Made by a program: the position numbers and the translations under genes
Source of the DNA: Thauera sp.
GTDB lineage: Bacteria > Pseudomonadota > Gammaproteobacteria > Burkholderiales > Rhodocyclaceae
NCBI GenBank assembly: GCA_017302295.1
Contig: JAFLDS010000016.1
Span: 1-64,000, forward strand
Length of the DNA: 64,000 nucleotides
Direction: 5' to 3'
The notes under the pieces: generated by a model
The model's input: only the letters and a program-made list of their open reading frames with translations
Database searches by the model: none
Told to the model about the DNA's origin: nothing
Part shown: positions 12,915-30,632 of the stretch, one piece after another
How positions within the stretch are numbered: the first letter of the stretch is position 1
Layout: each line of letters begins with the position of its first letter

Positions 12915-12955
12915 GGTTTGGCGCTTTCCATGAGGCTGAACCGCCGCCGTTCGGG

Positions 12956-14748: not shown

Positions 14749-14777
14749 TTGACAGACCGGCAAGGTGGTGGTTAATC
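14749..14777 (+). promoter_or_regulatory. Sigma-70-like promoter of the dioxygenase operon
   Basis: A consensus -35 TTGACA (14749-14754) is followed 17 bp later by a weak -10, TTAATC (14772-14777). The predicted start falls inside the palindrome at 14781-14800, so a bound repressor would block initiation. Confidence 0.6.
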
Positions 14778-14780
14778 TTT

Positions 14781-14800
14781 AATCAAGCGCTTGCTTGATT
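14781..14800 (+). promoter_or_regulatory. Island operator, copy 1
   Basis: AATCAAGC-GCTT-GCTTGATT is an 8+8 bp perfect palindrome with a 4-base spacer, 30 bp upstream of the dioxygenase start codon. Its inner 18-mer ATCAAGCGCTTGCTTGAT recurs exactly, in inverted orientation, at 30582-30599 before the ferredoxin operon. The size and symmetry fit a TetR-family dimer site; the TetR gene at 26216 is the obvious candidate. Confidence 0.8.
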
Positions 14801-14829
14801 GATACCGAAACCATTCCCCGGAGGCTGCG

Positions 14830-16119
14830 ATGTCTGCTTTTCAACCGATTCCCGAGGCGTCCGCGCGCGCTGCTTCATCTCCCGACTACATGCAATTGAT
14901 CCAGTCCGACCGGGTGCACGCCTCGCTCTACACCAGCGAAGCGGTGTATCGCGATGAGCTGGAGAAGATCTTCTATCGCGGATGGGTGTATGTCGGCCAC
15001 GAATCGGAGATTCGCAAGCCGGGTGACTTCGTGCGGCGGAACATCGGCGAGGAGCCGGTCATTCTGCTCCGTGACAGGAAAGGTCAGTTCCAGGTTCTGA
15101 AGAATCGCTGCGCGCATCGCGCAAACCTGATCTGCAGCGACGAGAAGGGCAATGCCAAGAACTTCATGTGTCCCTACCACGGCTGGGTCTTCAGCCTCGA
15201 GGGGAGCCTGCTCGATGTGCCCTACCCGAAGGGTTTCACCCGCAACAAGGAGGACGCCGGGCTGGAGAAGCTGCCGCTGATCGACAGCTATCGCGGTTTC
15301 ATCTTCGCCAGCTTCAACGCGGACGCCGGCACGTTGGATGACCACCTCGGCAACGCCAAGGCCGTGATCGACCGTGCCGTGGAAATGTCGCCGGTGGGTG
15401 AGGTCGACCTCTCGGCGGGCTGGGCCAAGCACAAGTTCTATGCGAACTGGAAAATGCTGCCCGAGAACGATACCGACGGTTACCACGTCAATTTCGTCCA
15501 TGCCTCCTTCGCCAAGGTGCTGCGTTCGCACTATGACGACGCGGCGCTGCAGGCCGAGGAAGATCTCGAGTCGGAGACGATCGACTGGGGCAACGGTCAC
15601 ACCGAACTGAATCTGGGGCCGTCCTACAAGACCGAGATGGTCTGGCTGGGCTACAACGATTCGTCGCGATTCCCCCAATACGTTGCCGCTCTCGAGCAGG
15701 CCTACGGCCACGAAAAGGCGCACGAGTCCCTGAGGGCCGGTCCGCCGCATACGGTGATCTTCCCGAACCTCTTCATCGCGGAAATGAACATCGTGATGTT
15801 CGAGCCGCGCGGCCCCAACGAGTGTGTCCAGTGGCACACGCCGATGCTGCTCAAGGGCGTCTCCGATGACCTCAACGAACGCATCCTCAGGCAGTGCGAA
15901 GCCGCGCTGGGTCCCGCGGGCTTCCTCCTCGCCGATGACGGAACGATTTCCGAGCGGCAGCAGATCTCGCTGAAGTCGGGCAATGCATGGCTCGACGTGA
16001 GTCGCGGAGATGAGCGCGAGAAGGAGGGGCCGGGCGATGTGCGCATCGGTCACGTCACGGATGAAACGACCAACCGCGGCTTCTGGAAGCACTACCGGAA
16101 GCTGATGTCCCGCCCCTGA
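14830..16119 (+). CDS. Aromatic ring-hydroxylating dioxygenase, alpha subunit
   Basis: Catalytic large subunit of a Rieske oxygenase, 429 residues. Rieske [2Fe-2S] ligands: C94-x-H96 and C114-x2-H117. Mononuclear iron ligands H219 and H224 follow the DTDGYH motif, whose D216 is the usual bridge for electron transfer. It would insert O2 into an aromatic ring as a cis-diol, with the beta subunit and the ferredoxin/reductase at 28.9-30.6 kb. Next to a CoA ligase, SCP2 thiolase and DUF35 protein it fits an IpfA-like enzyme acting on an arylacetyl-CoA-type substrate. Start ATG at 14830 has CGGAGG 6 bases upstream. Substrate is inferred from context only. Confidence 0.9.
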   Translation: MSAFQPIPEASARAASSPDYMQLIQSDRVHASLYTSEAVYRDELEKIFYRGWVYVGHESEIRKPGDFVRRNIGEEPVILLRDRKGQFQVLKNRCAHRANLICSDEKGNAKNFMCPYHGWVFSLEGSLLDVPYPKGFTRNKEDAGLEKLPLIDSYRGFIFASFNADAGTLDDHLGNAKAVIDRAVEMSPVGEVDLSAGWAKHKFYANWKMLPENDTDGYHVNFVHASFAKVLRSHYDDAALQAEEDLESETIDWGNGHTELNLGPSYKTEMVWLGYNDSSRFPQYVAALEQAYGHEKAHESLRAGPPHTVIFPNLFIAEMNIVMFEPRGPNECVQWHTPMLLKGVSDDLNERILRQCEAALGPAGFLLADDGTISERQQISLKSGNAWLDVSRGDEREKEGPGDVRIGHVTDETTNRGFWKHYRKLMSRP

Positions 16120-16134
16120 TCTCCTCGCGCTGCA

Positions 16135-16160
16135 CCGGCCCCCTCGGAACGGCGGGCCGG
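16135..16160 (+). other. Intercistronic hairpin between dioxygenase subunits
   Basis: CCGGCCC (16135-16141) and GGGCCGG (16154-16160) form a 7-bp GC-only stem with a 12-base loop. No T-run follows, so it is more likely to stabilize mRNA or mark processing than to end transcription. Confidence 0.4.
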
Positions 16161-16194
16161 GTCCCTGCCACTTACTGAATCTGAAGGAACGACC

Positions 16195-16710
16195 ATGCAA
16201 CTCGTGTCGATGGAAGAAATGCGCCAGATCGAAGCCCTCCTTTACAAGGAGGCGCGGCTGGCCGATGAGTCCCGCTATGCCGAGTGGGAAGATCTTGTCG
16301 ATGACGACATGTACTACTGGGTCCCGGCCGGGCAGCCCGACGCCGACCCTTCGCGCACGATCTCGGTTATTGCCGACAATCGCCGTCGCTTGAAGAGCCG
16401 CATTGCGCAGTTGAAGACGGGCATGCGCCACGCGCAGCTGCCGGCGTCGCCGATGCGCCGTGTGCTGTCCAACGTCGAAGTCAGCAAGGAAGAGGCGCCG
16501 AAGCAGCAGGGCGCGCAGGAATACCAGGTCCGCGCCAACTTCGTGCTCTATGAACTGCGCGCGCAGTCGACGAACACCCTCGAAGTGTGGCCCGGCAGCG
16601 TCGAGTACCGGGTGCGTGCCAAGCCGTCTGGCGAATGGAAGATCTTCTACAAGAAGGTCTCGCTGGTGCATGGCACCGAGCCGCTGGCCACGATGGGGTT
16701 CTTGATCTGA
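16195..16710 (+). CDS. Aromatic ring-hydroxylating dioxygenase, beta subunit
   Basis: Small subunit of 171 residues with the cone-shaped NTF2-like fold of the family: an N-terminal helix (IEALLYKEARLADESRYAEW), DDDMYYWVPA, and C-terminal strands ending in EPLATMGFLI. It has no metal site and assembles with the alpha subunit as a hexamer in characterized relatives. SD AAGGAA sits 7 bases before the ATG. It is the second gene of the island. Confidence 0.9.
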   Translation: MQLVSMEEMRQIEALLYKEARLADESRYAEWEDLVDDDMYYWVPAGQPDADPSRTISVIADNRRRLKSRIAQLKTGMRHAQLPASPMRRVLSNVEVSKEEAPKQQGAQEYQVRANFVLYELRAQSTNTLEVWPGSVEYRVRAKPSGEWKIFYKKVSLVHGTEPLATMGFLI

Positions 16711-16756
16711 CGCCGTGCGTCCGCAAGGCGCAGCACGATCCTATTCAGGGGGAATG

Positions 16757-17935
16757 ATGGCAAGTCGAGGGAAGGCACGCGGTGCGATCGTCGGGCTCGG
16801 GCAGAGTGCGCTGTCGCGCAAGCCGATCGGGACGGCAAGACAGCTTGCGGTGGCGGCAGTGCGGGCAGCGATTGCCGATAGCGGCCTGAAACATGGAGAG
16901 ATCGACGGGCTGCTGATCAACCGCAGCCCCTTGGTGCCGCACGACGTGTTGCCGCTGAAGTTGCAGGACGACCTGCAGCTGACGAAGTTGCGCTTGCTGA
17001 CCTCGATCGAGGGCGAGGGATCGTCGGCCGTGCAGATGATCCAGTACGCCGCTCTCGCGATCGAGGCGGGCATGGCTACGAATGTGGTCTGTGTCTTTTC
17101 GGACGATCCCGTGGGTGTCGCCACCGGCGGGCAGGCCTTTTCGCCCTGTCTCGAGATATCCGGCATTCCAGGCTGGGAAGCGCGCTGTGGCTTGCATGGT
17201 GCGGCGGGCGCCTATGCGCTGGCGGCGCGGGAGTATCTCTGGCATTACGGCCTGGACGACGACGCGCTGGGCTGGGTCGCGGTTTCCGATCGTGCGTGGG
17301 CACAGCGAAATCCGGATGCCTTCCTGCACAAACCCCTGACGATCGACGATTACCGCCAGTCGCCGTGGGTCGTGGAGCCTTTCCGCGTGCTCGATTGCGC
17401 CTATCCGGTGAATGGCGCCATCGCCGTGGTCGTGAGCGCTGCCGGTGCCGCGGCGAACATCTCGGAGCGGCCGGTCTACCTCTATGGCATGGGGCAGGGG
17501 CATCGCGGCTTTTTGGGCTTCGCTACGCCGGGAGAACCGCTCACCGGCGCGGCGATCGCCGGCCGTGGGGCGTTCGCCATGGCGGGCGCATCGCCCGCAG
17601 ACGTGACCGCCTGTCAATTCTACGAGGCCTTCTCCTTCACGACACTGCTTGCCCTGGAGGAGTACGGCCTGTGCGGGCCCGGTGAAGCCGCAGCGTTCGT
17701 GCGGAGCGGACACACGGCTCCCGATGGCCGGCTGCCCTGCAACACCGGTGGAGGACACTTGTCCGGGTTCTACCTGCAGGGCATGACACCCGTCGCCGAG
17801 GCGGTCATCCAGGCAAGGCGGCAGGGTGGGCCGAGGCAACTCGAGAACCCCGACCTGATGCTCGTCACCGGCAACGGCGGGCGACTCGATTACCACGCGG
17901 CATTGCTCGTCGGGCCCGCGCCCTCAATCGCATGA
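16757..17935 (+). CDS. SCP2-type thiolase, probable acyl-CoA aldolase component
   Basis: A 392-residue thiolase-fold protein of the SCPx/lipid-transfer group. The segment that normally holds the nucleophilic Cys (residues 81-94, LTSIEGEGSSAVQM) has no Cys, and the C-terminal GHP motif is replaced by G333-H-L-S-G-F-Y339. Such thiolase-like proteins paired with a DUF35 partner (Ltp2-ChsH2 in steroid breakdown; IpfD-IpfE in ibuprofen breakdown) cleave beta-hydroxyacyl-CoA side chains by a retro-aldol step rather than by thiolysis. Here that would release acyl-CoA from the ring diol (inference). ATG at 16757 fits the AGGGGG at 16747-16752; 16754 is also possible. Confidence 0.85.
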   Translation: MASRGKARGAIVGLGQSALSRKPIGTARQLAVAAVRAAIADSGLKHGEIDGLLINRSPLVPHDVLPLKLQDDLQLTKLRLLTSIEGEGSSAVQMIQYAALAIEAGMATNVVCVFSDDPVGVATGGQAFSPCLEISGIPGWEARCGLHGAAGAYALAAREYLWHYGLDDDALGWVAVSDRAWAQRNPDAFLHKPLTIDDYRQSPWVVEPFRVLDCAYPVNGAIAVVVSAAGAAANISERPVYLYGMGQGHRGFLGFATPGEPLTGAAIAGRGAFAMAGASPADVTACQFYEAFSFTTLLALEEYGLCGPGEAAAFVRSGHTAPDGRLPCNTGGGHLSGFYLQGMTPVAEAVIQARRQGGPRQLENPDLMLVTGNGGRLDYHAALLVGPAPSIA

Positions 17936-17981
17936 GTGCGCGAACCCGCGGTGCGCACCGGATAACCCAGTTCCACGAGAA

Positions 17982-18368
17982 ATGACGATGAAAGACGTGA
18001 ATCAGGACGTTACGCCCGAAGCGCCTGTCGATGACGACTTCCTGGCTGGCCTGGAGCGGGGCGAGTTGCTCTACCCGCGCTGTGCCGACTGCAACGCGGC
18101 GCTGCCCTTTGGGGCGGCATCCTGCCTGCACTGCGGTTCGGCCCACCTGAAGTGGGTCGCAAGCGCCGGTGAGGGCAGCTTGCAGTCCTACGTGATCTAC
18201 CACCGCAGCTATGTGCCCGGCGTTGAAGCGCCTTATGCCGTGGGCCTTTTCCAGCTGGAAGAAGGGCCGCGTCTGCTCGCGCGGCTCGACCTGTCGGGTC
18301 AGGACCGATTCGTCCGCGGGGGCGAGTTCGCCGCCAGGGTCCAGGACGGACAGTTGACCTTCGGCTAA
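17982..18368 (+). CDS. DUF35 OB-fold/zinc-ribbon protein, partner of the thiolase
   Basis: This 128-residue protein has the DUF35 layout: an N-terminal helix (DDFLAGLERGELLYPRC), a rubredoxin-like zinc ribbon with CADC and CLHC pairs (about residues 30-50), then an OB-fold ending in GGEFAARV. DUF35 domains bind the CoA part of substrates and activate SCP2-type thiolases such as Ltp2. The gene directly follows the thiolase gene (46 bases) and corresponds in place and family to ipfE. Confidence 0.88.
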   Translation: MTMKDVNQDVTPEAPVDDDFLAGLERGELLYPRCADCNAALPFGAASCLHCGSAHLKWVASAGEGSLQSYVIYHRSYVPGVEAPYAVGLFQLEEGPRLLARLDLSGQDRFVRGGEFAARVQDGQLTFG

Positions 18369-18470
18369 GCGACCGATGCCTGCCTTCGGGCGTGCCGGAA
18401 CCCACCCACACAAGAAAAAAAGACCTTGCACCATCAAGACGCATACAGAAAACCACCTTCGGAGACAAAT

Positions 18471-20060
18471 ATGCTGCCGCGCGATTTGATCAAACGTTGT
18501 TCCCGCAATTTCCCGAACAAGCCGGCGTATCTCATGGGGGAACGCAGTGCGTCCTGGCGCAGGATGGATGAACGCTCGGACTGGCTGGCCGCCGGCTTGC
18601 AGAAACTCGGGCTCGGAAAAGGCGACGCGATCGGCGTGTTCTCGCAGGAGAGCATCGAGATCTACGAGCAGTTCCTGGCGTGCATGAAGATCGGCGCCGT
18701 TCGGGTCGGGATCAACTGGCGCTATGCCACGGAAGAGTTTCTCCACTGTGCGCGTGACAGCAGCATCAAGGCCCTGATCGTCCAGGGCAAGCTGACCGAC
18801 CAGATCCGCAAGGAACTGGAGCAGTTTGCGAAGGAGGGCGTGCTGCTCATCGGTTACGACGGTAATCATGGACTCGACCTCGACTACGAGGCGATCATCG
18901 ATCAGGGACGCCAGCGCGCGGTCGTCTACCCCGACATTGAGCGTGACGACACCTTGTTCGTGACCTACACGTCGGGCACGAGCGGGCTGCCCAAGGGCGT
19001 CGTGCTCAGCCACGGCGGCCTCTACGACGTGATCCTGCATTCGGTCCTCTCCGTCGGACTGAGCCATGACGATGTCTGGTACATGCCGGCGGCCTCGTCG
19101 TGGGTGGTGATCGCGATGAACGTGTGGGGGCTGGCCAACGGCATGACCCACGTGATTCCCGAGGGGGCCTTCGACGTCAAGGGCTATCTGCGCGACGTCG
19201 AGCGCCACCGGGTGACGGTGGTCATGCAGGTCCCGACGACGCTGCGCTGGCTGATGCGAGAGTACGCCGCGGGAGGCTACGACTTCTCGTCGGTGCGCAT
19301 GCTGGTGTTCGGCTCCTCGCCGGCGTCGCCCGAACTGATTCGCCACGTGCATGAGATGTGGCCGGAAGTCGGCTTGCTGCAGACGTATGGACAGACTGAA
19401 GTCACCGGGGGGTGGGTCACGTTCATGACCCCCGCAGACTATCGACTCGCGCTGAATGGCCGTCCGGAACTGCTCAAGTCCGTGGGACGCGTCGGCCTGC
19501 ACTTCGAGCTGAGCGTGCGCGATGCAGAGGGCAGGGAACTGCCGCCGGGCGAGATCGGCGATCTCTGGATGCGCGGCACCCCCATGATGAAGGGCTATCA
19601 GAACCTTCCGGAAAAAACCCGGGAAGTCCTGCCCGGCGACGGGTGGCTGCGCAGCCATGACATCGTGAGCATTGATGCCGACGGCTACGTCTACCTGCAC
19701 GACCGCAAGAACTTCCTGATCATCACCGGCGCGGTGAATGTCTTCCCCGCCAGCGTCGAGGCCATCGTCCTGGAGCATCCGGCGGTGGAGGAAGTCGCGG
19801 TTGTCGGGATTCCTCACCCGGAATGGGGCGAGGCGGTAGTTGCGGTCGTCAAGCCGAAGGAGGGCGAGCCGCTGACGGCGGAGGGGCTGATCGAGTTCTG
19901 TCGCCAGCATCTGAGCAAACCGGAGACGCCCAAGCACGTGCTGATCGTGCACGAGCCGCTGCCCAAGACGCTCACCGCGAAGCTGAGGAAGGACGAGATA
20001 CGCCGCCAGGTGCTTGCGGATGCCGGGAAGCTGCCGTGGTCCCTGACCGAGGGGAACTGA
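18471..20060 (+). CDS. AMP-forming acyl/aryl-CoA ligase
   Basis: A 529-residue adenylate-forming ligase that would turn an aromatic carboxylic acid into its CoA thioester with ATP. Motifs: P-loop-like YTSGTSGLPKG at residues 166-176, the YGQTEV block near the adenylate, and the hinge/C-terminal region HDRKNFLIITGAVNVFP. The usual catalytic Lys motif reads TAKLRKDEIR. In family and position it corresponds to ipfF. ATG at 18471 follows GGAGA; an upstream in-frame start at 18426 lacks a good SD. Confidence 0.9.
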   Translation: MLPRDLIKRCSRNFPNKPAYLMGERSASWRRMDERSDWLAAGLQKLGLGKGDAIGVFSQESIEIYEQFLACMKIGAVRVGINWRYATEEFLHCARDSSIKALIVQGKLTDQIRKELEQFAKEGVLLIGYDGNHGLDLDYEAIIDQGRQRAVVYPDIERDDTLFVTYTSGTSGLPKGVVLSHGGLYDVILHSVLSVGLSHDDVWYMPAASSWVVIAMNVWGLANGMTHVIPEGAFDVKGYLRDVERHRVTVVMQVPTTLRWLMREYAAGGYDFSSVRMLVFGSSPASPELIRHVHEMWPEVGLLQTYGQTEVTGGWVTFMTPADYRLALNGRPELLKSVGRVGLHFELSVRDAEGRELPPGEIGDLWMRGTPMMKGYQNLPEKTREVLPGDGWLRSHDIVSIDADGYVYLHDRKNFLIITGAVNVFPASVEAIVLEHPAVEEVAVVGIPHPEWGEAVVAVVKPKEGEPLTAEGLIEFCRQHLSKPETPKHVLIVHEPLPKTLTAKLRKDEIRRQVLADAGKLPWSLTEGN

Positions 20061-20062
20061 AC

Positions 20063-20494
20063 TTGAACGCCCCGCTTGAAATGTGCGCAGGCCTGCGCAG
20101 TGTCTTCGAGTCACATTCGATGCGCACGCTCGACATGCGGATCGTGGAGGCTGGCGACGGCTTTGCGAAGGGCAGATGGCTTCCTCCGGACTGCCTTCTC
20201 AACGGCAACGGCGTGGTGCAGGGGGGCTTCGTCGGCGCCGCTTGCGACCAGATGATGGCGGCTGCCATCGCTTCGGCAGTCGGGACACAGAAGTTCGCAT
20301 CGATCAATCTGCAGATGACGTATCACCGTGCCGTGGGGCAGGAAGAGTACGAAGTCACCGCGCAATTGGTTCGCGCTGGAAAGCGTCTCGCATACCTCAC
20401 CGCCGAAGTGCGGCGCGGGGATGACCTCTTCGTCAGCTGCCAAAGCTCGTTGATGCTGCAAGGAGAGAGGCCCGACCCGAGCGAAACCCCGTAA
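20063..20494 (+). CDS. PaaI-family hotdog thioesterase
   Basis: A 143-residue single hotdog-fold protein. The active-site helix region is NGNGVVQGGFVGAACDQMM, with the V-x-G-G-F motif in place of the classical HGG; the Asp of ACDQ fits the catalytic acid. It probably hydrolyses dead-end aryl-CoA or acyl-CoA to free trapped CoA, as PaaI does in phenylacetate breakdown (inference). TTG at 20063 is chosen because GAGGGG lies 9 bases upstream; ATG at 20081 has no SD. Confidence 0.8.
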   Translation: MNAPLEMCAGLRSVFESHSMRTLDMRIVEAGDGFAKGRWLPPDCLLNGNGVVQGGFVGAACDQMMAAAIASAVGTQKFASINLQMTYHRAVGQEEYEVTAQLVRAGKRLAYLTAEVRRGDDLFVSCQSSLMLQGERPDPSETP

Positions 20495-20555
20495 TGACGC
20501 TTTGACCGATAAGAAAGACAGACAGAAAGACAGACGCACTCAAAAGGAAGAGACC

Positions 20556-21740
20556 ATGAAGAGACAAAATCAGGAACGCACGAAGTCGATCGTTGGGAAC
20601 ATTCTCAAGGCAGCGTTCGGGCTGTCGATCGGGGTGATGACGACAGTCTCGATCGCAGCCGACGCCGTCAAGATCGGTGTGGTTACCACCAGCACCGGGC
20701 CGGGTTCCTATCTCGGCGAAGCTGAGGAGAAGACCATCAAGCTGATGGTGGACACCCTGAACAAGCAGGGCGGGGTTCTCGGGCGCAAGATCGAGCTCGT
20801 CCACTATGACGACGGCACGAACGCGGATCGGGCGCGGACGTTGATGCAGCGCCTGGTGACCGAGGATGAAGTCAGCCTGGTCATCGGCAGCAGCACCACG
20901 CCCAATACGCTGTCGATGGCCGATGTCGCGACACGCAGCAAGGTGCCGCTGATCTCCATGGCCGGCGCGAAGGTGCTGACCGAGCCGCTGCGGCCGTGGC
21001 TGTTCGTCATCCCGGAAAATGACGTCATGGCATTGGGGGTGATGTTCGATCACCTCGCCAAGCACAAGCTGAACAATGTAGCGCTGCTGTCGAGCACCTC
21101 CGGCTTTGGCCGCGCCGCGCGCGAAGTCGCGCTCGAGCTGAGCGCGAAGCGAGGCGACGTCAAGGTCGTCGCGGACGAAACCTACGCCGCGGGCGACACC
21201 GACATGTCGGCCCAGCTGACCCGCATTCGGTCAAACGGCCAGGTTCAGGCGGTGATCAATCTCGATTTCGGCAATCAGCCGGCCATCGTCACGCGCAATC
21301 ACGCGGCGTTGGGGATCAAGGCGCCGCTTTATCTGAGTCATTCGACGGCCGCGCCGAAGTATCCGGAACTGGCGGGACCCGCGTCGGAAGGTGCGCGCCT
21401 TGCGGTGCCGTCCCTGATGGTGGTCGACCAGCTTCCCGATTCGGCGCCGGAGAAGGCAAAGGCGCTCGAGTTCCGCACGCTCTACCAGGAGCGCTACAAG
21501 GAGCTGCCGCATGGCTTCCATGGCTATGGCTATGACGGCTTGCTGGTCGCGGTGGATGCTATCAAGCGTGCGGGCTCGACCGATGGCCAGGCCCTGAAGG
21601 ACGCGCTCGAGAAGACGAAAGGCCTCCCGGGCGTAACCGGCGAGTACAACTACTCGGCCACCAACCATGGCGGGTACGTGCCCAAGAGCAAGCTCCACAT
21701 GACCGAGATCCGCAACGGCAAGTTCGTGATGATCGATTGA
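20556..21740 (+). CDS. ABC transporter substrate-binding protein (HAAT family)
   Basis: Periplasmic binding protein of 394 residues, type I fold, of the branched-chain amino acid/amide group. The N-terminus has a basic start and a hydrophobic stretch (IVGNILKAAFGLSIGVMTTV) ending near SIAADAVKIG, a likely signal peptide. Features: STGPGSYLGEAEEKTI ligand loop, DDGTNADRARTLMQRL, and YDGLLVAVDAIKRAGS. Many members placed in aromatic clusters bind aromatic acids, and the operon suggests that here. ATG at 20556 follows AAGGAAGAGA. Confidence 0.88.
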   Translation: MKRQNQERTKSIVGNILKAAFGLSIGVMTTVSIAADAVKIGVVTTSTGPGSYLGEAEEKTIKLMVDTLNKQGGVLGRKIELVHYDDGTNADRARTLMQRLVTEDEVSLVIGSSTTPNTLSMADVATRSKVPLISMAGAKVLTEPLRPWLFVIPENDVMALGVMFDHLAKHKLNNVALLSSTSGFGRAAREVALELSAKRGDVKVVADETYAAGDTDMSAQLTRIRSNGQVQAVINLDFGNQPAIVTRNHAALGIKAPLYLSHSTAAPKYPELAGPASEGARLAVPSLMVVDQLPDSAPEKAKALEFRTLYQERYKELPHGFHGYGYDGLLVAVDAIKRAGSTDGQALKDALEKTKGLPGVTGEYNYSATNHGGYVPKSKLHMTEIRNGKFVMID

Positions 21741-21747
21741 GCGCTCC

Positions 21748-21785
21748 ATGTGGCCCCATCGTCGCACGCCACGATGGGGCCACAT
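21748..21785 (+). other. Perfect 15-bp hairpin after the binding-protein gene
   Basis: ATGTGGCCCCATCGT (21748-21762) is the exact reverse complement of 21771-21785 with an 8-base loop. It lies in the 104-base gap between the binding-protein and permease genes. It lacks a T-run, so it probably acts as an mRNA 3' stabilizer or partial terminator that keeps binding protein in excess over permease, as in mal and his operons. Confidence 0.7.
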
Positions 21786-21844
21786 CGAAGAGCGTCTGTG
21801 CCCCCGCATGCCAGAAGTGATGCGCCTCGCCGGAGAAGCCTGAA

Positions 21845-23730: not shown

Positions 23731-24488
23731 GCGATCTCCAAGTTGTTGCACTCAGCAAGGTGTTCGGGGGCCTGCGGGCAACGGACGATGTGTCGTTCAG
23801 CATCGAAGCTGGAACGGTGAACTCGATCATCGGCCCGAACGGTGCAGGCAAGACGACCTTGCTCAACCTCATAACGGGGATCTATGAACCCAGCAGCGGC
23901 GATGTCCGTCTGGGGGGAAAGAGCCTGATCGGCAAGCCCACCCACGTCCGCGTCGGGATGGGATTGGGGCGCACGTTCCAGACCCCGCAGATCTGTCACA
24001 ACATGTCGGCGATCGAGAACGTGATGCTCGGCAGTCATCTGCAGCTCGACAGTCGCCTCGCACCGGCTGCGTTGCGCCGCCGCTCTATCGTGAGCGCTGA
24101 CAAGCAGTGTCGCGCGCGTGCAGCCGAACTGATGAACTATGTGGGTCTCGGTCGCTACCTGGAAGAGAGCCCCGGTGCGATGCCCTATGGCGCGCTCAAG
24201 CGCCTCGAGATCGCGCGTGCGCTCGCCGGGTCGCCCAAGCTGATCCTGCTCGATGAGCCTGCGGCGGGTCTTGGCGCGCCCGAGAAGGCGGAACTGTCGC
24301 AGCTCATCTCGAAGCTGAGCGAGTCCGGCGTCACGACCGTATTGGTGGAGCATGACATGAAGCTGGTGATGTCCGTGTCGAAACACATCGTCGTGCTCAA
24401 CTACGGCAAGAAACTTGCGGAAGGAACGCCGGATGTGGTTCGCGACAATCCGGAAGTCATTGCAGCATATCTGGGACGGGCGGCGTGA
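23727..24488 (+). CDS. livG: ABC transporter ATPase, LivG family
   Basis: ATPase of 253 residues. Walker A is GPNGAGKTT, Walker B is LILLDEPAAGL, and the H-loop is in VEHDMKLVM. The signature motif is MPYGALKRLEIARAL instead of the common LSYGQQRRLEIARAL, a tolerated LivG variant. It drives import together with the LivF ATPase. ATGA overlap with livM and TGATG overlap with livF. Confidence 0.9.
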   Translation: MSDLQVVALSKVFGGLRATDDVSFSIEAGTVNSIIGPNGAGKTTLLNLITGIYEPSSGDVRLGGKSLIGKPTHVRVGMGLGRTFQTPQICHNMSAIENVMLGSHLQLDSRLAPAALRRRSIVSADKQCRARAAELMNYVGLGRYLEESPGAMPYGALKRLEIARALAGSPKLILLDEPAAGLGAPEKAELSQLISKLSESGVTTVLVEHDMKLVMSVSKHIVVLNYGKKLAEGTPDVVRDNPEVIAAYLGRAA

Positions 24489-25273
24489 TGAGTGCAGATA
24501 CAGGAGTTCTGGAGCGGACGCGCGCGGTTGGGGCGCCAGCAGCAATCCGGCGCGAGGGCGAACTTATCCTGAAGGTCGATGGGCTGTCCGTGCATCACGG
24601 CAGCGTCTGCGCGCTGGATGGCGTGTCACTGGAGGTGCGAAAGGGCGAGCTGGTCGCGCTGGTTGGAAGCAACGGAGCAGGGAAATCCACCCTTCTGCGC
24701 ACGCTGTCGGGATTGCATACCCCCAGGGCGGGGACCATCCACTATCTGCATCAAGACGTCGCGACGCTGAAGCCGGCGCAGCGGGTCGAGGTGGGCATGG
24801 CGCACGTTCCCGAGGGGCGAAGGGTTTTCGCACCGCTGACGGTCGAGGACAACCTGATGCTGGGGGCGTTCTCAAGACGAGACCGGCGGGATGTGCTGCT
24901 CGGGGACCTCGAAGAAATCTATGGTCTCTTCCCGATCCTTCGTGAGAAGCGCACGCTGGCTGCCGGAACACTGTCTGGCGGGCAGCAGCAGATGCTCGCT
25001 ATCGGCCGCGCGCTGATGGGCAAGCCTCGGCTTCTTCTGCTCGATGAGCCGAGCATGGGCCTGGCGCCACTGCTCATTGCCGAGGTCTTCAATGTCGTGA
25101 GGAGATTGCAGCAGCAGGGCATGACGATCCTCATCGTCGAGCAGAATGCGACTGCAGCGCTGGAACTGGCCGATTTCGGCTACGTCCTGGAAGCCGGGCG
25201 TGTCACCAAGGCCGGGAAAGGCTTTGCGTTGAGCAACGATGAGGAGGTCAAGAAGGCCTACCTCGGCATCTGA
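24488..25273 (+). CDS. livF: ABC transporter ATPase, LivF family
   Basis: Second ATPase, 261 residues. Walker A GSNGAGKST, signature LSGGQQQMLAIGRAL, Walker B LLLLDEPSMGLAP. The N-terminal 25 residues before the first beta strand are longer than usual. It ends the transporter block; a 6-bp stem (25285-25290 with 25297-25302) follows but has no T-run, so read-through into the nitroreductase-family gene is likely. Confidence 0.9.
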   Translation: MSADTGVLERTRAVGAPAAIRREGELILKVDGLSVHHGSVCALDGVSLEVRKGELVALVGSNGAGKSTLLRTLSGLHTPRAGTIHYLHQDVATLKPAQRVEVGMAHVPEGRRVFAPLTVEDNLMLGAFSRRDRRDVLLGDLEEIYGLFPILREKRTLAAGTLSGGQQQMLAIGRALMGKPRLLLLDEPSMGLAPLLIAEVFNVVRRLQQQGMTILIVEQNATAALELADFGYVLEAGRVTKAGKGFALSNDEEVKKAYLGI

Positions 25274-25405
25274 GGTGGAACGGAACGGCAAGAGCGTGCC
25301 GTCGGTCGTGAGGTCTATGGGCTAATCCTTTTCCTGATTGGCAGTGGCGGTCAGGCATGATCATGAACCGACCCAGACTTCAGTCGGGCGTTATGCGCGT
25401 GGCCC

Positions 25406-26110
25406 ATGGATATCCTGGGAAAACCGAACATGTCGTTTGCACTTGATGACGTAATCCTCGGTCGTCGCGCGGTCAGGGCATTCCTTCCGAAGCCTGTGCC
25501 GCGCGAGGCAATCGATCAGATTCTCGAACTTGCCGCACGCGCGCCGTCGGGCAGTAATATTCAGCCCTGGCGCGTGCATGTGCTGACGGGAGAGGTCCGT
25601 CAGGCCTTATGCGATGTGGTTTTTGCCGCCTACGGGCGGGGAGATGTCGATCAACGCGCTGAGTACGACTACTATCCCCGCGAGTTCTTCGAGCCTTATC
25701 TGGGCAGGCGACGACAAAATGGCTGGTCGCTGTATGGCTTGCTTGGTATCGCGCGGAAGGACAAGGCGAGGATGAAAGCCCAGCTGGGCAAGAATTTCCA
25801 GTTCTTCGGGGCACCGGTTGGGCTGATCTTCACGATTGATCGTCGCTTGTCCCAAGGCAGCTGGATTGACTATGGCATGTTTCTGCAGAATCTGATGCTC
25901 GTCGCGACATCGCGCGGGTTGGCGACATGCCCTCAGGCAGCCTGGATCGACTATCACGAAATCATCGGCAGGCAGCTCGGTTTCAAGGCAGACGAGCAAT
26001 TGGTGTGTGGCATGGCCATGGGATATGAGGATCAGGAAGCGATTGAGAGCCGTTTCCGTACTGAACGGGTGCCGCTCTCCGACTTTGTTGTACACCATGC
26101 CGGACGCTGA
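25406..26110 (+). CDS. Nitroreductase-family flavoprotein
   Basis: A 234-residue FMN-dependent NADH-type oxidoreductase fold. Family features: LGRRAVRAFLPKPVPREAIDQIL, the FMN-binding ARAPSGSNIQPWRVHVLTG block, and MLVATSRGLATCPQAAWIDY near the C-terminus. Its role in the island is unknown: it might reduce an unsaturated or quinoid intermediate, or act on nitroaromatics. It is in the same direction as the transporter genes, 132 bases downstream. Starts at 25406 and 25430 are both possible; neither has a strong SD. Confidence 0.8.
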   Translation: MDILGKPNMSFALDDVILGRRAVRAFLPKPVPREAIDQILELAARAPSGSNIQPWRVHVLTGEVRQALCDVVFAAYGRGDVDQRAEYDYYPREFFEPYLGRRRQNGWSLYGLLGIARKDKARMKAQLGKNFQFFGAPVGLIFTIDRRLSQGSWIDYGMFLQNLMLVATSRGLATCPQAAWIDYHEIIGRQLGFKADEQLVCGMAMGYEDQEAIESRFRTERVPLSDFVVHHAGR

Positions 26111-26215
26111 CTGGCGTTCGCCTTGCGCGCATCTTTACACCCTTGTGTCCTCGGTTTTATGCAATGAAGATAACGCCGCCCGGGTCGTGACTCGGGTGCG
26201 CTGAGAACCAGAAAA

Positions 26216-26923
26216 ATGACGAAGATGAATCCAGTTCTTTCGCCCGGCAGATCCGAGACGGCCGCTCGGCGGCGAGGCCGTCCCGGTGACTATCAGGGGG
26301 ATCGTCAGCAGGCACTCGTGCTGGCGGCGGCCAAACTGTTCTACAAGCTTGGATACGAAGGGGCGACGGTCAGGGAAATCGCCAAGGAAGCCGGCATCAC
26401 CTCCGGCAGCATCTTTTATCACTTCGAGTCGAAGGAAGAGATCCTGGCGGAAGTGCTTCGGCAGGGGATGGAAGACGGTGTCGCCATCGTCCGGACGACG
26501 CTCGACGGAGTCGAAGGTGCGCGGGCGCGATTCGACGCACTCATTCTAGGGCACTTGCGCGCACTCCATGGCGAGAAGACGCACTTCCATCACATCTGGT
26601 TGAAGGATTTGCGCGCCCTGCCCGAGGACATGCAGGCGCCATTGCTGGTGTTGAGCCGCAACTACAGAAGCCTGTGGTACCAAGTGCTCGACGAAATGAA
26701 AGCAGCCGGGCTGATCCGCGGCGACAAGAATGTCTTCCGCAAGGTCGCCATCGGCGCGCTCAACTGGACTGCGCAGTGGGTGCATGGTCCGACGCCCGCG
26801 CAGATCGACGAGCTGGCGCGTGCGATGAGCCTGTCGCTGCTGAACGAACCCGACCTGACCCCCTTCAAGATGCTGGAAGGCCGCGAGAGCCTTTCGGGTA
26901 CGAGCAGCGACGGGGACTTCTAA
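26216..26923 (+). CDS. TetR-family regulator, candidate island repressor
   Basis: A 235-residue protein with an N-terminal TetR HTH (about 30-80): QALVLAAAKLFYKLGYEGA, then TVREIAKEAGITSGSIFYHF and the SKEEILAEVL start of helix 4. The remaining two thirds form a ligand domain like those of KstR2/FadR-type acyl-CoA sensors (inference). It is the last gene of the rightward operon and converges on the CaiB gene. Two identical palindromes at the outer promoters of the island are its probable binding sites; a CoA thioester from the pathway would be a fitting inducer. Confidence 0.85.
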   Translation: MTKMNPVLSPGRSETAARRRGRPGDYQGDRQQALVLAAAKLFYKLGYEGATVREIAKEAGITSGSIFYHFESKEEILAEVLRQGMEDGVAIVRTTLDGVEGARARFDALILGHLRALHGEKTHFHHIWLKDLRALPEDMQAPLLVLSRNYRSLWYQVLDEMKAAGLIRGDKNVFRKVAIGALNWTAQWVHGPTPAQIDELARAMSLSLLNEPDLTPFKMLEGRESLSGTSSDGDF

Positions 26924-26952
26924 TGGCGTCTTCTTTTTCTGAAGGTCAGCAC

Positions 26953-26988
26953 GACGCCTTCTTGCGCCAGCGAGCGCAGGAAGGCGTC
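26953..26988. terminator. Possible bidirectional terminator
   Basis: GACGCCTTC (26953-26961) pairs with GAAGGCGTC (26980-26988), a 9-bp stem with an 18-base loop that can extend with a GCGC/GCGC inner pair. It lies between convergent genes (TetR and CaiB). No clear T-tract is present, so the call is tentative. Confidence 0.4.
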
Positions 26989-27002
26989 TTCTGGGTGAAT
27001 GC

Positions 27003-28175
27003 TCAGGCCGTCTCGGGCTGAACGAATACCGCTTTTTGCGTCAGGAGAGCGTCGATCTCCGCGCCCGAGAAGCCGTGGCCCTGGAGGACCGATAGTGTCT
27101 GGTCGCCGACGCACGGCACCGCACTCGCCATGCGGGGGGGAGTCCGGGAGAGGCGGGGGGCAGGGGCCGGAATCCGCGCGTCGAGCATCGTGACGAAGTT
27201 CCCACGCGCGAGGTTGTGCGGATGGCGCGGTGCCTCCGCCATGTCCAGCACAGGTGTGCAGCAGGCATCGCTGCCGTCGAACACGGCCGTCCACGTATCC
27301 CGCGTCCGCTCCAGGAAGCGGCTTGCGATCCGCGCCTTGATCTTCTCCCACGTTTCCCGTCGCCACTGCGCCGAGAGGTCGATGTCGTCGATCTGCAGCA
27401 AAGCGAGCAGCTGCCGGTAGAACGGTGCCTCGATCGCGCCAACGGCCATGAACTTGTCGTCGGCGCAGCGGTAGGTGCAATAGAAGGGCGCTGCGCCATC
27501 GAGAAAGTTCGAATGACGTTCGACGCTCCAGTGCTTGCGTCCGAGCATCGCATAGATCGGGCTCATCAACAGTGCCGCGCCGTCGCTCATCGCCGCGTCG
27601 AGAACCTGCCCCTGGCCGGACTTCGCCGCCTCGAACAGCGCGCACACGATGCCGTAGGCCATGACCATTCCGCCGCCGCCGTAGTCACCCACCAGGTTCA
27701 GCGGGGGCGGTGGGGGCGCGTTGCTGTCTCCCATGGCATACAGGGCGCCGCTCAGCCCGATGTAGTTGATGTCATGTCCGGCCGTCCGGGCGAGCGGGCC
27801 GGACTGTCCCCACCCTGTCATCCGCGCAAAGATCAGGCGCGGATTGAGGCTGGCGCACATCTCGGGGCCGAAGCCCAGCTTTTCGGCGACGCCGGGCCTG
27901 AATCCCTCGATCAGCACGTCGGCTTCGCGCACGAGTCGCAGCAGGGTCTCCACGCCACGCTCATGGCGCAGATCGATGCAGATCGATTCCCGGCCGCGGT
28001 TGACCGGGCCGTCAGCGATGTCATTCATGCCACCGTCGGCACCTGCGGGCGGGCGGTCGATGCGGATGACCCGCGCGCCCATGTCCGATAGCAGCATGCC
28101 GCAGAAGGGGGCAGGCCCGAGTCCTGCCAGTTCGATGACGGTGATGCCGTCCAGTGGTCTCTTCGAAGTGTCCAT
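27003..28175 (-). CDS. CaiB/BaiF family, alpha-methylacyl-CoA racemase-like
   Basis: A 390-residue class III CoA-transferase-fold protein. Sequence blocks resemble alpha-methylacyl-CoA racemases (AMACR/MCR) rather than formyl-CoA transferases: VIELAGLGPAPFCGMLLSDM, GHDINYIGLSGALYAMG, LNLVGDYGGGGMVMAYG and VLDAAMSDGAALL. In MCR the catalytic pair is a His near the GHDINY block and an Asp in GDYGGGG. It would interconvert the alpha-carbon stereoisomers of a 2-methylacyl-CoA such as a 2-arylpropionyl-CoA. It is last in the leftward operon with the dioxygenase electron chain. A CoA-transferase role cannot be excluded. Confidence 0.8.
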   Translation of the reverse strand: MDTSKRPLDGITVIELAGLGPAPFCGMLLSDMGARVIRIDRPPAGADGGMNDIADGPVNRGRESICIDLRHERGVETLLRLVREADVLIEGFRPGVAEKLGFGPEMCASLNPRLIFARMTGWGQSGPLARTAGHDINYIGLSGALYAMGDSNAPPPPPLNLVGDYGGGGMVMAYGIVCALFEAAKSGQGQVLDAAMSDGAALLMSPIYAMLGRKHWSVERHSNFLDGAAPFYCTYRCADDKFMAVGAIEAPFYRQLLALLQIDDIDLSAQWRRETWEKIKARIASRFLERTRDTWTAVFDGSDACCTPVLDMAEAPRHPHNLARGNFVTMLDARIPAPAPRLSRTPPRMASAVPCVGDQTLSVLQGHGFSGAEIDALLTQKAVFVQPETA

Positions 28176-28265
28176 GGGGGTTTGTTCTCTTTGATTTTCT
28201 TGAGGCGCCTCGGGTTTGCGCTATCCGCATGCCGTCGGCGGTGAGATTGGCGTGCGGGCTGCGGC

Positions 28266-28835
28266 CTAGCCGAGTCCAATCGGTTGCGGCGCAGTCGCCA
28301 CGATCAGGGAGAACATGCCGTCGAACGTCGACTTGTTGTCTCCCCTGAACCGCGGGTCGCCGTTCTCGCCGAACGCTTCGTCGATGCGACGCCAGTCGGC
28401 TTCATCGAGGTGCCTCTCGGCGAGCGGAAGAAGAAGGCGCTCTTCCTCCGTCATGTGACGCCACTGCAGGTCTGCGAAGCGGTCGACGCTCGCGAGAAAA
28501 CGGTCTGCGGCACCTTCGACCCCGTTCGCCAGGTCCGTCAGCTGCGCCTTGAGGGTCGCGGTCAGGGACAGGTCATCCTCATGCTGCGCGTGCAGCCTCT
28601 CGATGATGGGCTCGGCCTCGACTCCGCGCCCGAGCAGGGCGGAGAAGATGTACGTCTCTTCCTTGACGTGGTGGAGCGTCTGCGGGAACTGCTCGATGTA
28701 GTCGAGCATTGTCCTGAGCAGCTCGACGTTGGGCGGGTGGTGCAGAGCCTCCTTGGCGAAATGCTGGAGGCCGTGAACCACCGCCCCGATCGCGCGGTGC
28801 TCTTCGTGGATCTGCAGAATTACGGCGTTCTTCAT
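28266..28835 (-). CDS. Hemerythrin-like (HHE domain) protein
   Basis: A 189-residue four-helix protein with hemerythrin-type ligands: HEEHRAIG with H at helix 1, HHVKEETYIF in helix 2, RLHAQHEDDL in helix 3 and WRHMTEEERLLLP in helix 4. Such domains bind a di-iron site and sense or carry O2, or handle iron and NO stress. It is inside the ferredoxin-reductase-CaiB operon; a link to the oxygen demand of the dioxygenase or to Fe-S protection is plausible but unproven. The start is ATG 28835; upstream residues in the frame show no similarity. Confidence 0.8.
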   Translation of the reverse strand: MKNAVILQIHEEHRAIGAVVHGLQHFAKEALHHPPNVELLRTMLDYIEQFPQTLHHVKEETYIFSALLGRGVEAEPIIERLHAQHEDDLSLTATLKAQLTDLANGVEGAADRFLASVDRFADLQWRHMTEEERLLLPLAERHLDEADWRRIDEAFGENGDPRFRGDNKSTFDGMFSLIVATAPQPIGLG

Positions 28836-28935
28836 TCCGGAAATTACCTTGGCTGAGGATGAGATGAATGGCCGCCGGGTGCACGTGGAGGGCAGCGGCG
28901 CGATGGGCGACCAAATGGCGACCAATGGGCGACCT

Positions 28936-30192
28936 CTAGCGGAGCAGGGCCTTGAGATCAAAAGCAGGATCGGAGAGGTCGTCGTCCTTCACCTCGGTCC
29001 TCCGCGCGATCAGGCGCTCGATCGTGCGGCGATCACGGCCAGAATTCACAAGGGTGGCGGCCACCAGGGCGTCTCCGTCTTTCTCGAAAAGCGTCCACTT
29101 CCCCGCGGCGACATCGCCCCGGATCACGCAGCGGCTTCTGTCGGACGTGTGCCCAAGGAATTGCAGGTTGAGGTCGTACTGGTCGGTCCACACCCATGGC
29201 ACCTCCTGGTACGGCTCTTCCGCGCCGCAGGCATTCCGGGCTGCGGTCTCGCCCATGACGCGGGCCGCCTGCCAATGCTCCATGCGCAAGGCGGGCGCCA
29301 GATTCGCCGACCTGATGCGCGCGACATCGCCAATGGCATAGATCGACGGCTCGCTCGTCCTGCAGAATTCATCGACCAGAATGCCGTTGTCGCATTCGAG
29401 TCCCGCTGCGGCAGCCAGCGAGTCATTGGCCGTGGTTCCGATGCCGGCCACCACCAGGTCGCCGTGTATTCTCCGTCCGTCCTCAATCCTGATTTCGAGT
29501 CCGGGCCCGGTGCGCGAGATGCGCTCCGCCTGTGCCCCGAGCTCGAACCTGACTCCCTCGCGATCGTGGCGCGCCCTGAGGAATTGTGCGACAAGCGCGG
29601 GGGCGCCTCGCGAGACGATACGCGAGCCTGCTTCGACGACCGAGACATTGCAGCCGAGCCGTCGTGCTGCTGCTGCGACTTCCAGGCCGATGAAGCCCGC
29701 GCCGATCACGACGAGCCGGGAGCCGACCGCGTCGGCCAAGCGTCGTCGCAAGGACAGTGCGTCGCCGAGGGTCTTCAGATAGAGCAGATCTGCTTCGACT
29801 CCCGCGTCGACGATCGCCGGATCGAGTGTTCGGGCCTTCGAGCCGGTGGCGATGATGAGGCTGCGGTAGGCACACACGGACCCATCCGACAACTGGACCG
29901 TTCTGGCGTGCGGGTCAAGGTGTGCAGCGTGGATTCCAGACTTGATGACAAGTCGCGGATGCGCACGCAAGGTCTCGTCGATAAGCTGGAAGTCGCCGGT
30001 ATCCGAGTCTCCGAGCAGAACGTCCTTGGAGAGTGGAGGGCGGTCGTAGGGTTCCCACTCTTCCTCGTTCACGAGGAGAACCCTCTGCGTGTCATCGCAT
30101 GACAGAGCGGACTTGGCGGCACTCGACCCGCCGACGCCTGCGCCGATGATGAGGGTGTCAAAACTGTTGGACGCAGCGTTCATTGTGCTCAC
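28936..30192 (-). CDS. FAD-dependent ferredoxin reductase (oxygenase-coupled)
   Basis: A 418-residue two-dinucleotide-domain flavoprotein of the BphA4/putidaredoxin reductase group: FAD motif LIIGAGVGGSSAA near residue 17, PPLSKDVLLG, the NAD motif VVIGAGFIGLEVAA near 155, and YAIGDVARIRS before the C-terminal domain. It would pass electrons from NADH to the Rieske ferredoxin encoded just upstream. The GTG at 30192 overlaps the ferredoxin stop (GTGA), giving coupling; ATG at 30183 is an alternative. Confidence 0.9.
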   Translation of the reverse strand: MSTMNAASNSFDTLIIGAGVGGSSAAKSALSCDDTQRVLLVNEEEWEPYDRPPLSKDVLLGDSDTGDFQLIDETLRAHPRLVIKSGIHAAHLDPHARTVQLSDGSVCAYRSLIIATGSKARTLDPAIVDAGVEADLLYLKTLGDALSLRRRLADAVGSRLVVIGAGFIGLEVAAAARRLGCNVSVVEAGSRIVSRGAPALVAQFLRARHDREGVRFELGAQAERISRTGPGLEIRIEDGRRIHGDLVVAGIGTTANDSLAAAAGLECDNGILVDEFCRTSEPSIYAIGDVARIRSANLAPALRMEHWQAARVMGETAARNACGAEEPYQEVPWVWTDQYDLNLQFLGHTSDRSRCVIRGDVAAGKWTLFEKDGDALVAATLVNSGRDRRTIERLIARRTEVKDDDLSDPAFDLKALLR

Positions 30193-30551
30193 TCATGCAT
30201 CGGCAGTGCGGTGTAAAGGACGCCTTCATCGGCGATGGCCTCGTATGTCTGCAGTTTCTTGGTGCAGGGGCGGTCGACGGGCTCCCCGGTCCTGATGTCG
30301 AACGAACCCGAGTGAAACGGGCAGATGACGAGCCCGTCCTCGATGTCACCTTCGGAGAGGGACGCGTTGCCGTGCGTGCAGGTGTCGTCGGTGACGAAGC
30401 ACTCTCCGGCGATGCGGAATACGGCGAGCGGTGCGTGCTCGGGAAGCGTGACCTGGAGGGCGCTCCCCTCGGGGATATCTTCGATCTTGCAGAGCCGAAT
30501 CAGCGTCCTGGATTGCACGGGGGCCTCGGTGCGGGGGCAGGCGTTATTCAC
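30189..30551 (-). CDS. Rieske-type [2Fe-2S] ferredoxin
   Basis: A 120-residue ferredoxin with Rieske ligands C58-x-H60 and C77-x2-H80, the wording CTHGNASL ... CPFHSGSFD typical of BphA3-like dioxygenase ferredoxins. It carries electrons from the reductase to the dioxygenase alpha subunit. GTG at 30551 is chosen because GGAGA lies 8 bases before it and it is the first codon after the promoter-operator; an internal GTG at 30518 has no SD. It is the first gene of the leftward operon. Confidence 0.9.
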   Translation of the reverse strand: MNNACPRTEAPVQSRTLIRLCKIEDIPEGSALQVTLPEHAPLAVFRIAGECFVTDDTCTHGNASLSEGDIEDGLVICPFHSGSFDIRTGEPVDRPCTKKLQTYEAIADEGVLYTALPMHE

Positions 30552-30579
30552 TTGACGTTCTCCATCAGATAGTAGCGCA

Positions 30580-30601
30580 ATATCAAGCAAGCGCTTGATA
30601 T
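30580..30601 (-). promoter_or_regulatory. Island operator, copy 2
   Basis: ATATCAAGC-AAGC-GCTTGATAT is a 9+9 bp palindrome. Read on the minus strand its core is ATCAAGCGCTTGCTTGAT, identical over 18 bp, spacer included, to copy 1 at 14782-14799. It starts 2 bp after the -10 of the ferredoxin promoter, the same geometry as copy 1. Confidence 0.82.
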
Positions 30602-30603
30602 AA

Positions 30604-30632
30604 ATACTAGCAAAGCTGGATACGGTCTGCAA
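30604..30632 (-). promoter_or_regulatory. Sigma-70-like promoter of the ferredoxin operon
   Basis: On the minus strand: -35 TTGCAG (30627-30632), 17-bp spacer, -10 TAGTAT (30604-30609), each 4 of 6 to consensus. The start point falls in operator copy 2. Confidence 0.6.

Follow-up and report, generated by a model that had tools for sequence, protein, structure and literature searches.

Ibuprofen is a common water pollutant, and the closest described relatives of the locus reported here are the genes for its degradation, ipfABDEF and ipfHI, known from Sphingomonas Ibu-2 and from plasmid pIBU218 of Rhizorhabdus wittichii MPO218. In the excerpted text of the published accounts, the ipf cluster converts ibuprofen into isobutylcatechol and the use of a retro-aldolase by ipf has already been described (PMC9195938), Ibu-2 also removes the side chains of 2-phenylpropionate, tolylacetates and 2-(4-tolyl)propionate (PMC6063337), and ipfABDEF clusters were listed in 2018 in ten other strains, including Pseudoxanthomonas spadix, Noviherbaspirillum Root189 and Cycloclasticus (PMC6063337; repeated in PMC10004696).

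In the present study, we analysed a stretch of 64000 bases from a Thauera species (bases 1-64000 of contig JAFLDS010000016.1, our C8, in a genome of 4.11 Mb and 53 contigs; hereafter the window), which carries 17 linked genes of this kind between 14.8 and 30.6 kb. Gene calls were taken from an open reading frame listing together with Pfam or NCBIfam profile searches, and these place all 17 genes in the order given by an initial annotation, which had read them as an ipf-like aryl-CoA dioxygenation island. The rightward operon encodes the alpha and beta subunits of a Rieske dioxygenase, an SCP2-type thiolase, a DUF35 protein, an AMP-forming ligase, a thioesterase, five HAAT transporter components, a nitroreductase and a TetR regulator, and the leftward operon encodes a Rieske ferredoxin, a reductase, a hemerythrin and a CaiB protein. 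The order alpha-beta-thiolase-DUF35-ligase, on a single strand, equals that of ipfABDEF on pIBU218, as had been proposed. As such clusters were in print in 2018, the island is a fuller relative of the known ibuprofen pathway and not a new type of system. We consider it probable, from its gene content, that it constitutes a self-contained ipf-type upper pathway comprising import, CoA ligation, ipso-dioxygenation, retro-aldol release and shared TetR control.

Comparison with the described clusters

Although the same five families occur in the same order, the window proteins are only moderately similar to those of pIBU218, with identities of 54.5% (alpha), 55% (beta), 55% (thiolase), 34% (DUF35), 54% (ligase), 35% (reductase) and 41% (ferredoxin). 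The parts of the pIBU218 system are dispersed among copies of IS6100, whereas the window links transporter, racemase, regulator and electron chain; pIBU218 has only a substrate-binding-protein gene after the ligase, in contrast with the complete HAAT transporter of the window (substrate-binding protein, two permeases and two ATPases). The two also differ in the sub-clade of the alpha subunit, and the candidate ring-cleavage genes of the host genome are distant from the island.

Plasmid pBN3 of Paraburkholderia aromaticivorans BN5 (L002) shares the alpha subunit (58%), beta subunit, thiolase, DUF35 protein and ligase, and also a PaaI-type thioesterase, the ferredoxin, TetR (44%) and a racemase-like CaiB (50%). 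However, its genes run in one direction, its reductase and LivF are present as fragments (approximately 68 and 97 residues matched), and it has no match to the hemerythrin or the nitroreductase of the window. P. spadix (L034) shares the alpha subunit (70%), the core order, the thioesterase, the substrate-binding protein, LivH and LivM, together with a related palindrome, ACCAAGC-N4-GCTTGGT, near alpha, but encodes a second substrate-binding protein as well as a DcaP-type outer-membrane protein, and the available stretch ends within LivM. The suggestion that the Thauera island is more complete than the described set thus stands against the ibuprofen plasmids and pBN3, but completeness of this kind is not unique to it, as loci of Noviherbaspirillum, Extensimonas, Caenimonas and Pseudoxanthomonas also have HAAT genes behind the core.

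The alpha subunit falls among IpfA-type dioxygenases

In a protein search of the plasmid records, the alpha subunit was 58.3% identical with the pBN3 protein and 54.5% identical with that of pIBU218; the counterpart in a congeneric genome (G001) is 86% identical. We placed it in a tree of 73 rows, from which loci with an alpha below 500 bits (L096-L099) were excluded and which also omits several others, e.g. L043, L070, L074, L076, L080, L082 and L084. The window alpha forms a starred four-row clade (100/99) with those of G001, P. spadix and an Acidocella genome, and true IpfA lies in a separate clade of twelve rows (100/99). These are two of five sub-clades within a starred 34-row clade (99/96), itself nested in a 67-row ipf-like group, outside which fall HcaE, NdoB, XylX and the host BenA-type, AntA-type and C18 enzymes. 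The initial annotation had named clustering with a non-CoA dioxygenase family as a result that would overturn it, and no such clustering appears in the tree, although the outgroup branches are long (the tree program gave a warning) and the root of the ipf-like group is unsure. The positions C94, H96, C114 and H117, which we take from family motifs to be the Rieske ligands, are kept in 72 or 73 of 74 rows, and D216, H219, H224 and D370, presumably the iron site, in all 75 of 75.

The host genome contains a second unassigned dioxygenase alpha gene (G000:C18:4798-6018, L102), whose product is 36% identical with the window alpha; this region lies on a separate contig in the host and a few kilobases from the island in G001.

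The thiolase-fold protein resembles the steroid side-chain aldolase Ltp2

The nearest solved structure to the thiolase is Ltp2 (6ok1, 1.7e-48), which acts with the DUF35 protein ChsH2. In the excerpted text of PMC12329534, Tyr294 and Tyr344 of Ltp2 act when the enzyme cleaves a three-carbon side chain from a steroid by retro-aldol chemistry. Both are kept in the window protein, as Y303 (44 of 44) and Y353 (43 of 43), counting the rows with a letter at each position in a 47-row alignment. Given that Ltp2 is the nearest structure and that both catalytic tyrosines are retained, retro-aldol cleavage is the likely activity of this protein. By analogy, the substrate of Ltp2, with its tertiary hydroxyl on a ring carbon, alpha-methyl group and CoA thioester, would be a close analogue of an ipso-hydroxylated 2-arylpropionyl-CoA. 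However, the YDHF motif of Ltp2 reads YEAF in the window, with Ala replacing the oxyanion-hole His, and we call the protein Ltp2-like rather than Ltp2 because this His is missing; another substrate class is also expected. Among the 12 rows aligned at this position, ten have Ala and two, both from Rhodococcus, have Pro. A model of the aldolase predicted from five aligned rows had a mean predicted local distance difference test score of 34.2 and was not used.

The DUF35 partner was assigned by homology and adjacency. It is 48% identical with its G001 counterpart, compared with 82-86% for the alpha subunit, beta subunit, thiolase and ligase, and because of this difference a local replacement of DUF35 seems likely. 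The thioesterase two genes downstream is a weak match to its model (TIGR00369, 33.8 bits against a cut-off of 36.6).

Both operons carry the same operator-like palindrome

A perfect 16 bp palindrome, TCAAGCGCTTGCTTGA, lies downstream of the promoter-like sequence of both operons, whose -35 boxes, read by eye, begin at 14749 and 30632, the two ends of the island in the initial annotation. The exact 16-mer occurs in the 4.11 Mb genome only at these two places (14783-14798 and 30583-30598). Within the window, four matches with at most three mismatches were found against 0.69 expected, a number reached in none of 100 shuffles; two are the exact copies, one is an opposite-strand overlap of the first site, and one has three mismatches and lies at 38907. 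The gapped form TCAAGC-N4-GCTTGA is present at three places in the host genome and at five in G001, the exact 16-mer being confined in each to the two homologous promoters, and among 124 loci the gapped form was otherwise seen only in L007 and L013, which are pieces of these same two genomes. As the same palindrome stands at both promoters and recurs at the same places in G001, the two operons appear to form a single regulon in both genomes, and the TetR protein of the island is the likely reader.

Noviherbaspirillum (L033) and Pseudoxanthomonas (L034) have looser relatives of the palindrome close to alpha. Over 76 sequences, four of 12 such palindromes fall at -300 to +150 of the start of the alpha frame, compared with 0.30 expected under a uniform distribution; this class was chosen after L033 and L034 had been seen, so that the expectation is a guide only, and the counts include the window and G001. 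The third gapped-class palindrome of the host (G000:C11:58247-58262, L127) lies approximately 2.8 kb from a gene for the large subunit of anthranilate 1,2-dioxygenase.

The racemase-like protein, electron chain and accessory genes

The nearest solved structure to CaiB is the alpha-methylacyl-CoA racemase MCR (1x74, 1.1e-106), for which one PDB name includes ‘2-arylpropionyl’. CaiB retains the MCR motifs GHDINY, NLVGDYGGG (GD-GGG) and GAIE, which we take to hold the catalytic His, Asp and Glu of MCR. Because it matches MCR and keeps these motifs, it probably points to chiral alpha-methyl substrates such as 2-arylpropionyl-CoA. The ferredoxin and reductase are both present in the island, each below its equivalog cut-off and thus assigned at family level. 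The readings of the aldolase, the racemase and these two electron-transfer proteins hold by sequence.

The hemerythrin is 76% identical with its G001 counterpart, is absent by blastp from the other related loci searched and has no solved relative at an E value of 0.001. The nitroreductase, in blastp over the related loci, matches only L077 (27%) and the G001 locus (L100).

Conservation in a congener and distribution

Positions 14722-30497 of the window align to 4686762-4670959 of the G001 chromosome in four long pieces of 71-80% DNA identity and an extra 199-base piece at 68%, the alignment being interrupted around DUF35 and the nitroreductase. The rest of the window has no alignable counterpart in the 90 kb of G001 used for the comparison, and the flanks are unrelated. 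Since nearly the whole block aligns to a congener chromosome, the island is more than a chance assembly. The nitroreductase gene lies between thiolase and DUF35 in G001 (L100:12706-13440) but after the transporter in the window (25406-26110), and the two proteins are only approximately 35% identical; on account of this position and identity, it appears to have been recruited or moved separately, through either two recruitments or a shuffle.

Among 29 genomes of the genus, the host included, two have an alpha this close, and the next full-length matches are at 36%. Over 297 family-level genomes, a draw evidently without G001 and with at most six candidates scored per genome, the thiolase was found at 1e-60 in the host genome only. 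A scan of named genomes with two peptide patterns, which is not a census, gave 68 related loci, of which 31 have the full alpha-beta-thiolase-DUF35-ligase order. Some of the remaining 37 are cut by contig ends, and others have no linked aldolase despite approximately 10 kb of following sequence, e.g. those of Binatia (L077, L078 and L095). These counts sort genes by the start of the open frame, so that the entry ‘alpha>lig>beta’ for L003 and L070 stands for alpha-beta-ligase; the profiles were built on stop-to-stop frames, and hits of the nitroreductase profile, which was polluted by a shadow frame, were ignored.

Pairwise distances of the five core proteins correlate across 29 non-redundant loci (Mantel rho 0.38-0.78), and for each of the ten pairs none of 2000 permutations reached the observed value. 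Rows within 8% of one another in alpha had been dropped (from 38 to 29), and the stop-to-stop frames add noise at the N-termini.

In all six congener stretches examined, synteny with the window stops at approximately 12912-12923, just past an ammonium transporter gene. Neither the island nor its right flank up to 45000 lies within these stretches (L148 holds less than 2 kb beyond the synteny end), and no clean insertion point or duplication was found in them.

Candidate ring-cleavage genes lie elsewhere in the genome

No ring-cleavage gene was found in the window, as the initial annotation had noted, and the seven catechol 2,3-dioxygenase-type matches of the genome all lie on other contigs. 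Three of these exceed the TIGR03211 cut-off, on contigs C1, C10 and C3, and a fourth is just below it (309.1 against 320.2); no intradiol dioxygenase match was obtained anywhere in the genome. The Acidocella relative in the window's clade (L032) has, upstream of its alpha gene and in the same orientation, a meta-cleavage set with a catechol 2,3-dioxygenase (385.2 against 320.2 bits), a 2-hydroxymuconic semialdehyde dehydrogenase (833.1 against 693.25), an acetaldehyde dehydrogenase and a hydroxy-oxovalerate aldolase above their cut-offs, and relatives of the hydratase and decarboxylase below theirs. This gene set gives moderate support to a catechol as the product in this clade.

Proposed pathway and alternative readings

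In the pathway that we propose, the HAAT transporter would bring in an aryl-alkanoic acid, the AMP-forming ligase would couple it to CoA, and the racemase-like CaiB would interconvert the alpha-methyl epimers. The alpha-beta dioxygenase, fed by the ferredoxin and reductase of the island, would then introduce two oxygens at the side-chain-bearing ring carbon and its neighbour, and the Ltp2-like aldolase with DUF35 would cleave the side chain in a retro-aldol reaction, releasing propionyl-CoA (or acetyl-CoA when the substrate lacks the methyl group) and leaving a catechol, which would be opened by meta-cleavage enzymes encoded elsewhere in the genome. TetR would repress both operons via the shared palindrome until an acyl-CoA of the pathway, or the acid, relieves repression. 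The substrate is most likely a 2-arylpropionate, such as 2-phenylpropionate, 2-(4-tolyl)propionate or similar. The aryl-CoA dioxygenation and side-chain removal suggested by the initial annotation is supported by sequence, with the substrate remaining the inferred part.

Several observations weigh against this pathway. The second-best structure for the thiolase, 4u4e, is titled ‘Thiolase’ and is nearly equal to Ltp2 (1.2e-45), the oxyanion-hole His is replaced, the identity between the DUF35 protein and IpfE is low, and the four cysteines of DUF35 are kept in just 29, 20, 29 and 25 of 39 rows. The window alpha and IpfA belong to different sub-clades, the branching order of the five being unsettled, and their substrates may differ. 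Shared host ancestry contributes to the correlated divergence of the core proteins. Near alpha, nine of the 18 loci examined, that of true IpfA among them, showed no palindrome long enough to qualify. Directly in front of the meta-cleavage set of L032 stands the alpha gene of a benzoate-dioxygenase-like enzyme (589.5 bits, cut-off 780.95), which the set may serve as well or instead. The host genome encodes a second racemase-like protein (40%), and it also encodes phenylacetyl-CoA epoxidase, so that plain phenylacetate, which is probably covered elsewhere in the genome, would not need the island. The proposed scheme gives no role to the nitroreductase or the hemerythrin. Finally, what the analysis shows is gene content and order, homology, the catalytic positions, the shared palindrome and the occurrence of the block with other flanks in a congener, whereas the individual reactions, the mode of regulation and the identity of the substrate are predictions drawn from these.

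The alternative that survives best keeps the same enzymes and mechanism but assumes an unbranched substituted arylacetate, such as tolylacetate or an end product of alkylbenzene beta-oxidation, with acetyl-CoA leaving and the racemase serving otherwise. Ibu-2 takes tolylacetates (excerpted text of PMC6063337), and CaiB at 40% identity or above is found in just three of 75 loci (L002, L071 and L100; most stretches extend at most 10 kb per side). However, the racemase lies within the palindrome-marked operon pair in both Thauera genomes and keeps the MCR motifs, and pBN3 links a racemase too, and we regard this alternative as unlikely. A side-chain pathway for a larger ring system, such as a steroid or diterpenoid acid, is much less probable: the aldolase and DUF35 do resemble Ltp2-ChsH2 and the best sequence match among solved structures is a steroid side-chain aldolase, but the oxygenase genes next to them encode an alpha-beta ring dioxygenase of the IpfA group, the island has no steroid-type hydratase, and YEAF stands instead of YDHF. 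Least credible of all is an ordinary non-CoA aromatic acid dioxygenase cluster with unrelated CoA genes adjacent, since the HcaE and BenA models match alpha at family level but far below their cut-offs (HcaE 196.3 against 830 bits), whereas the five-gene order in 31 of 68 loci, the correlated divergence of the core proteins and the separate alpha clade all speak against it.

Coordinates and flanking genes

The features of the island are collected in Table 1. It is preceded by a short SBP_bac_11 frame (13050-13754) and adjoined by a gene for a long MASE3-GAF-PAS-HD sensor protein (30680-34009) that is not in the 90 kb of G001 compared. A phage-type integrase gene by tRNA-Gly(ccc) (3550-3624; region 1459-3624) is perhaps the edge of another mobile element.

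Table 1. Features of the ipf-type island (window positions)
Feature	Position	Strand	Remarks
Sigma-70-like promoter, rightward operon	14749-14777	+	TTGACA-N17-TTAATC; by eye from sequence
Operator palindrome TCAAGCGCTTGCTTGA	14783-14798	+	Directly after -10 box; putative TetR site
IpfA-like Rieske dioxygenase alpha subunit	14830-16119	+	
IpfB-like dioxygenase beta subunit	16195-16710	+	
IpfD-like SCP2-thiolase-fold protein	16715-17935	+	Probable Ltp2-like retro-aldolase; start uncertain
IpfE-like DUF35 (ChsH2-type) partner	17982-18368	+	Four-cysteine zinc-ribbon pattern
IpfF-like AMP-forming acyl/aryl-CoA ligase	18426-20060	+	
Hotdog-fold thioesterase, PaaI-like	20081-20494	+	Start 20036 or 20081
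HAAT ABC transporter substrate-binding protein	20502-21740	+	
HAAT permease, LivH-like	21845-22717	+	
HAAT permease, LivM-like	22717-23730	+	
HAAT ATPase, LivG-like	23727-24488	+	
HAAT ATPase, LivF-like	24485-25273	+	
Nitroreductase-family flavoprotein	25406-26110	+	
TetR-family regulator	26216-26923	+	Probable reader of both palindromes
Alpha-methylacyl-CoA racemase-like CaiB	27003-28175	-	
Hemerythrin HHE protein	28266-28835	-	G001-conserved region begins ~28835; open frame to 28961
Ferredoxin reductase, IpfH-like role	28936-30192	-	35% to pIBU218 counterpart
Rieske ferredoxin, IpfI-like role	30189-30551	-	Start 30551 or 30518
Second operator palindrome copy	30583-30598	-	Ahead of ferredoxin gene
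Sigma-70-like promoter, leftward operon	30604-30632	-	TTGCAG-N17-TAGTAT; by eye from sequence

Possible origin of the ibuprofen genes and significance

The literature searched, much of it in excerpt, yielded no account of the origin of the ibuprofen degradation genes and no report of the shared operator, the racemase link, the IpfD tyrosine pair or the Polaromonas match described below. In Polaromonas sp. AER18D-145 (L049:9760-13904), DNA 97.3% identical with the pIBU218 ipf genes extends over 4,146 bp to the contig end, with an extradiol-type gene and lower-pathway homologues (a meta-cleavage-type set) ahead of the core. This strain comes from a uranium tailings site (PMC9022503), and a literature search for Polaromonas with ibuprofen and ipf returned nothing but a biofilm review. 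In the alpha tree, the rows that nest with true IpfA come from Polaromonas, Extensimonas, Caenimonas, Noviherbaspirillum and Paraburkholderia and from two alphaproteobacterial metagenome or enrichment genomes. The Polaromonas match suggests that the ibuprofen genes had a betaproteobacterial source and that the core was transferred to sphingomonads, the direction being inferred.

Both pIBU218 (L001:20389-21399) and plasmid pRW412a (L122:13260-14399) have a gene for a HAAT-type substrate-binding protein after the ligase, followed by IS6100, and this gene looks like the remnant of a transporter-bearing island. The pBN3 cluster likewise looks like a decayed island of this type, with LivF residues 166-262 (61%) and reductase residues 4-70 (44%) recognizable after the ferredoxin gene (L002:22364-22927). 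We therefore put forward, tentatively and with confidence a little short of even, that the ipf module arose long ago as a natural pathway for 2-arylpropionates and substituted arylacetates, carried whole in Proteobacteria as a mobile, operator-marked island, and that the ibuprofen genes on sphingomonad plasmids are a piece of it, acquired recently from a Polaromonas-type betaproteobacterium and broken up by IS6100. If this is true, the Thauera island shows the ancestral form of the drug-degrading fragment, complete with the uptake system, the racemase and the repressor, which on the plasmids are lost or scattered. With its uptake system, racemase and operator in place, such an intact island would be a clean model for studying how bacteria assembled a pathway for a synthetic drug, and its genes are a candidate set for engineered removal.

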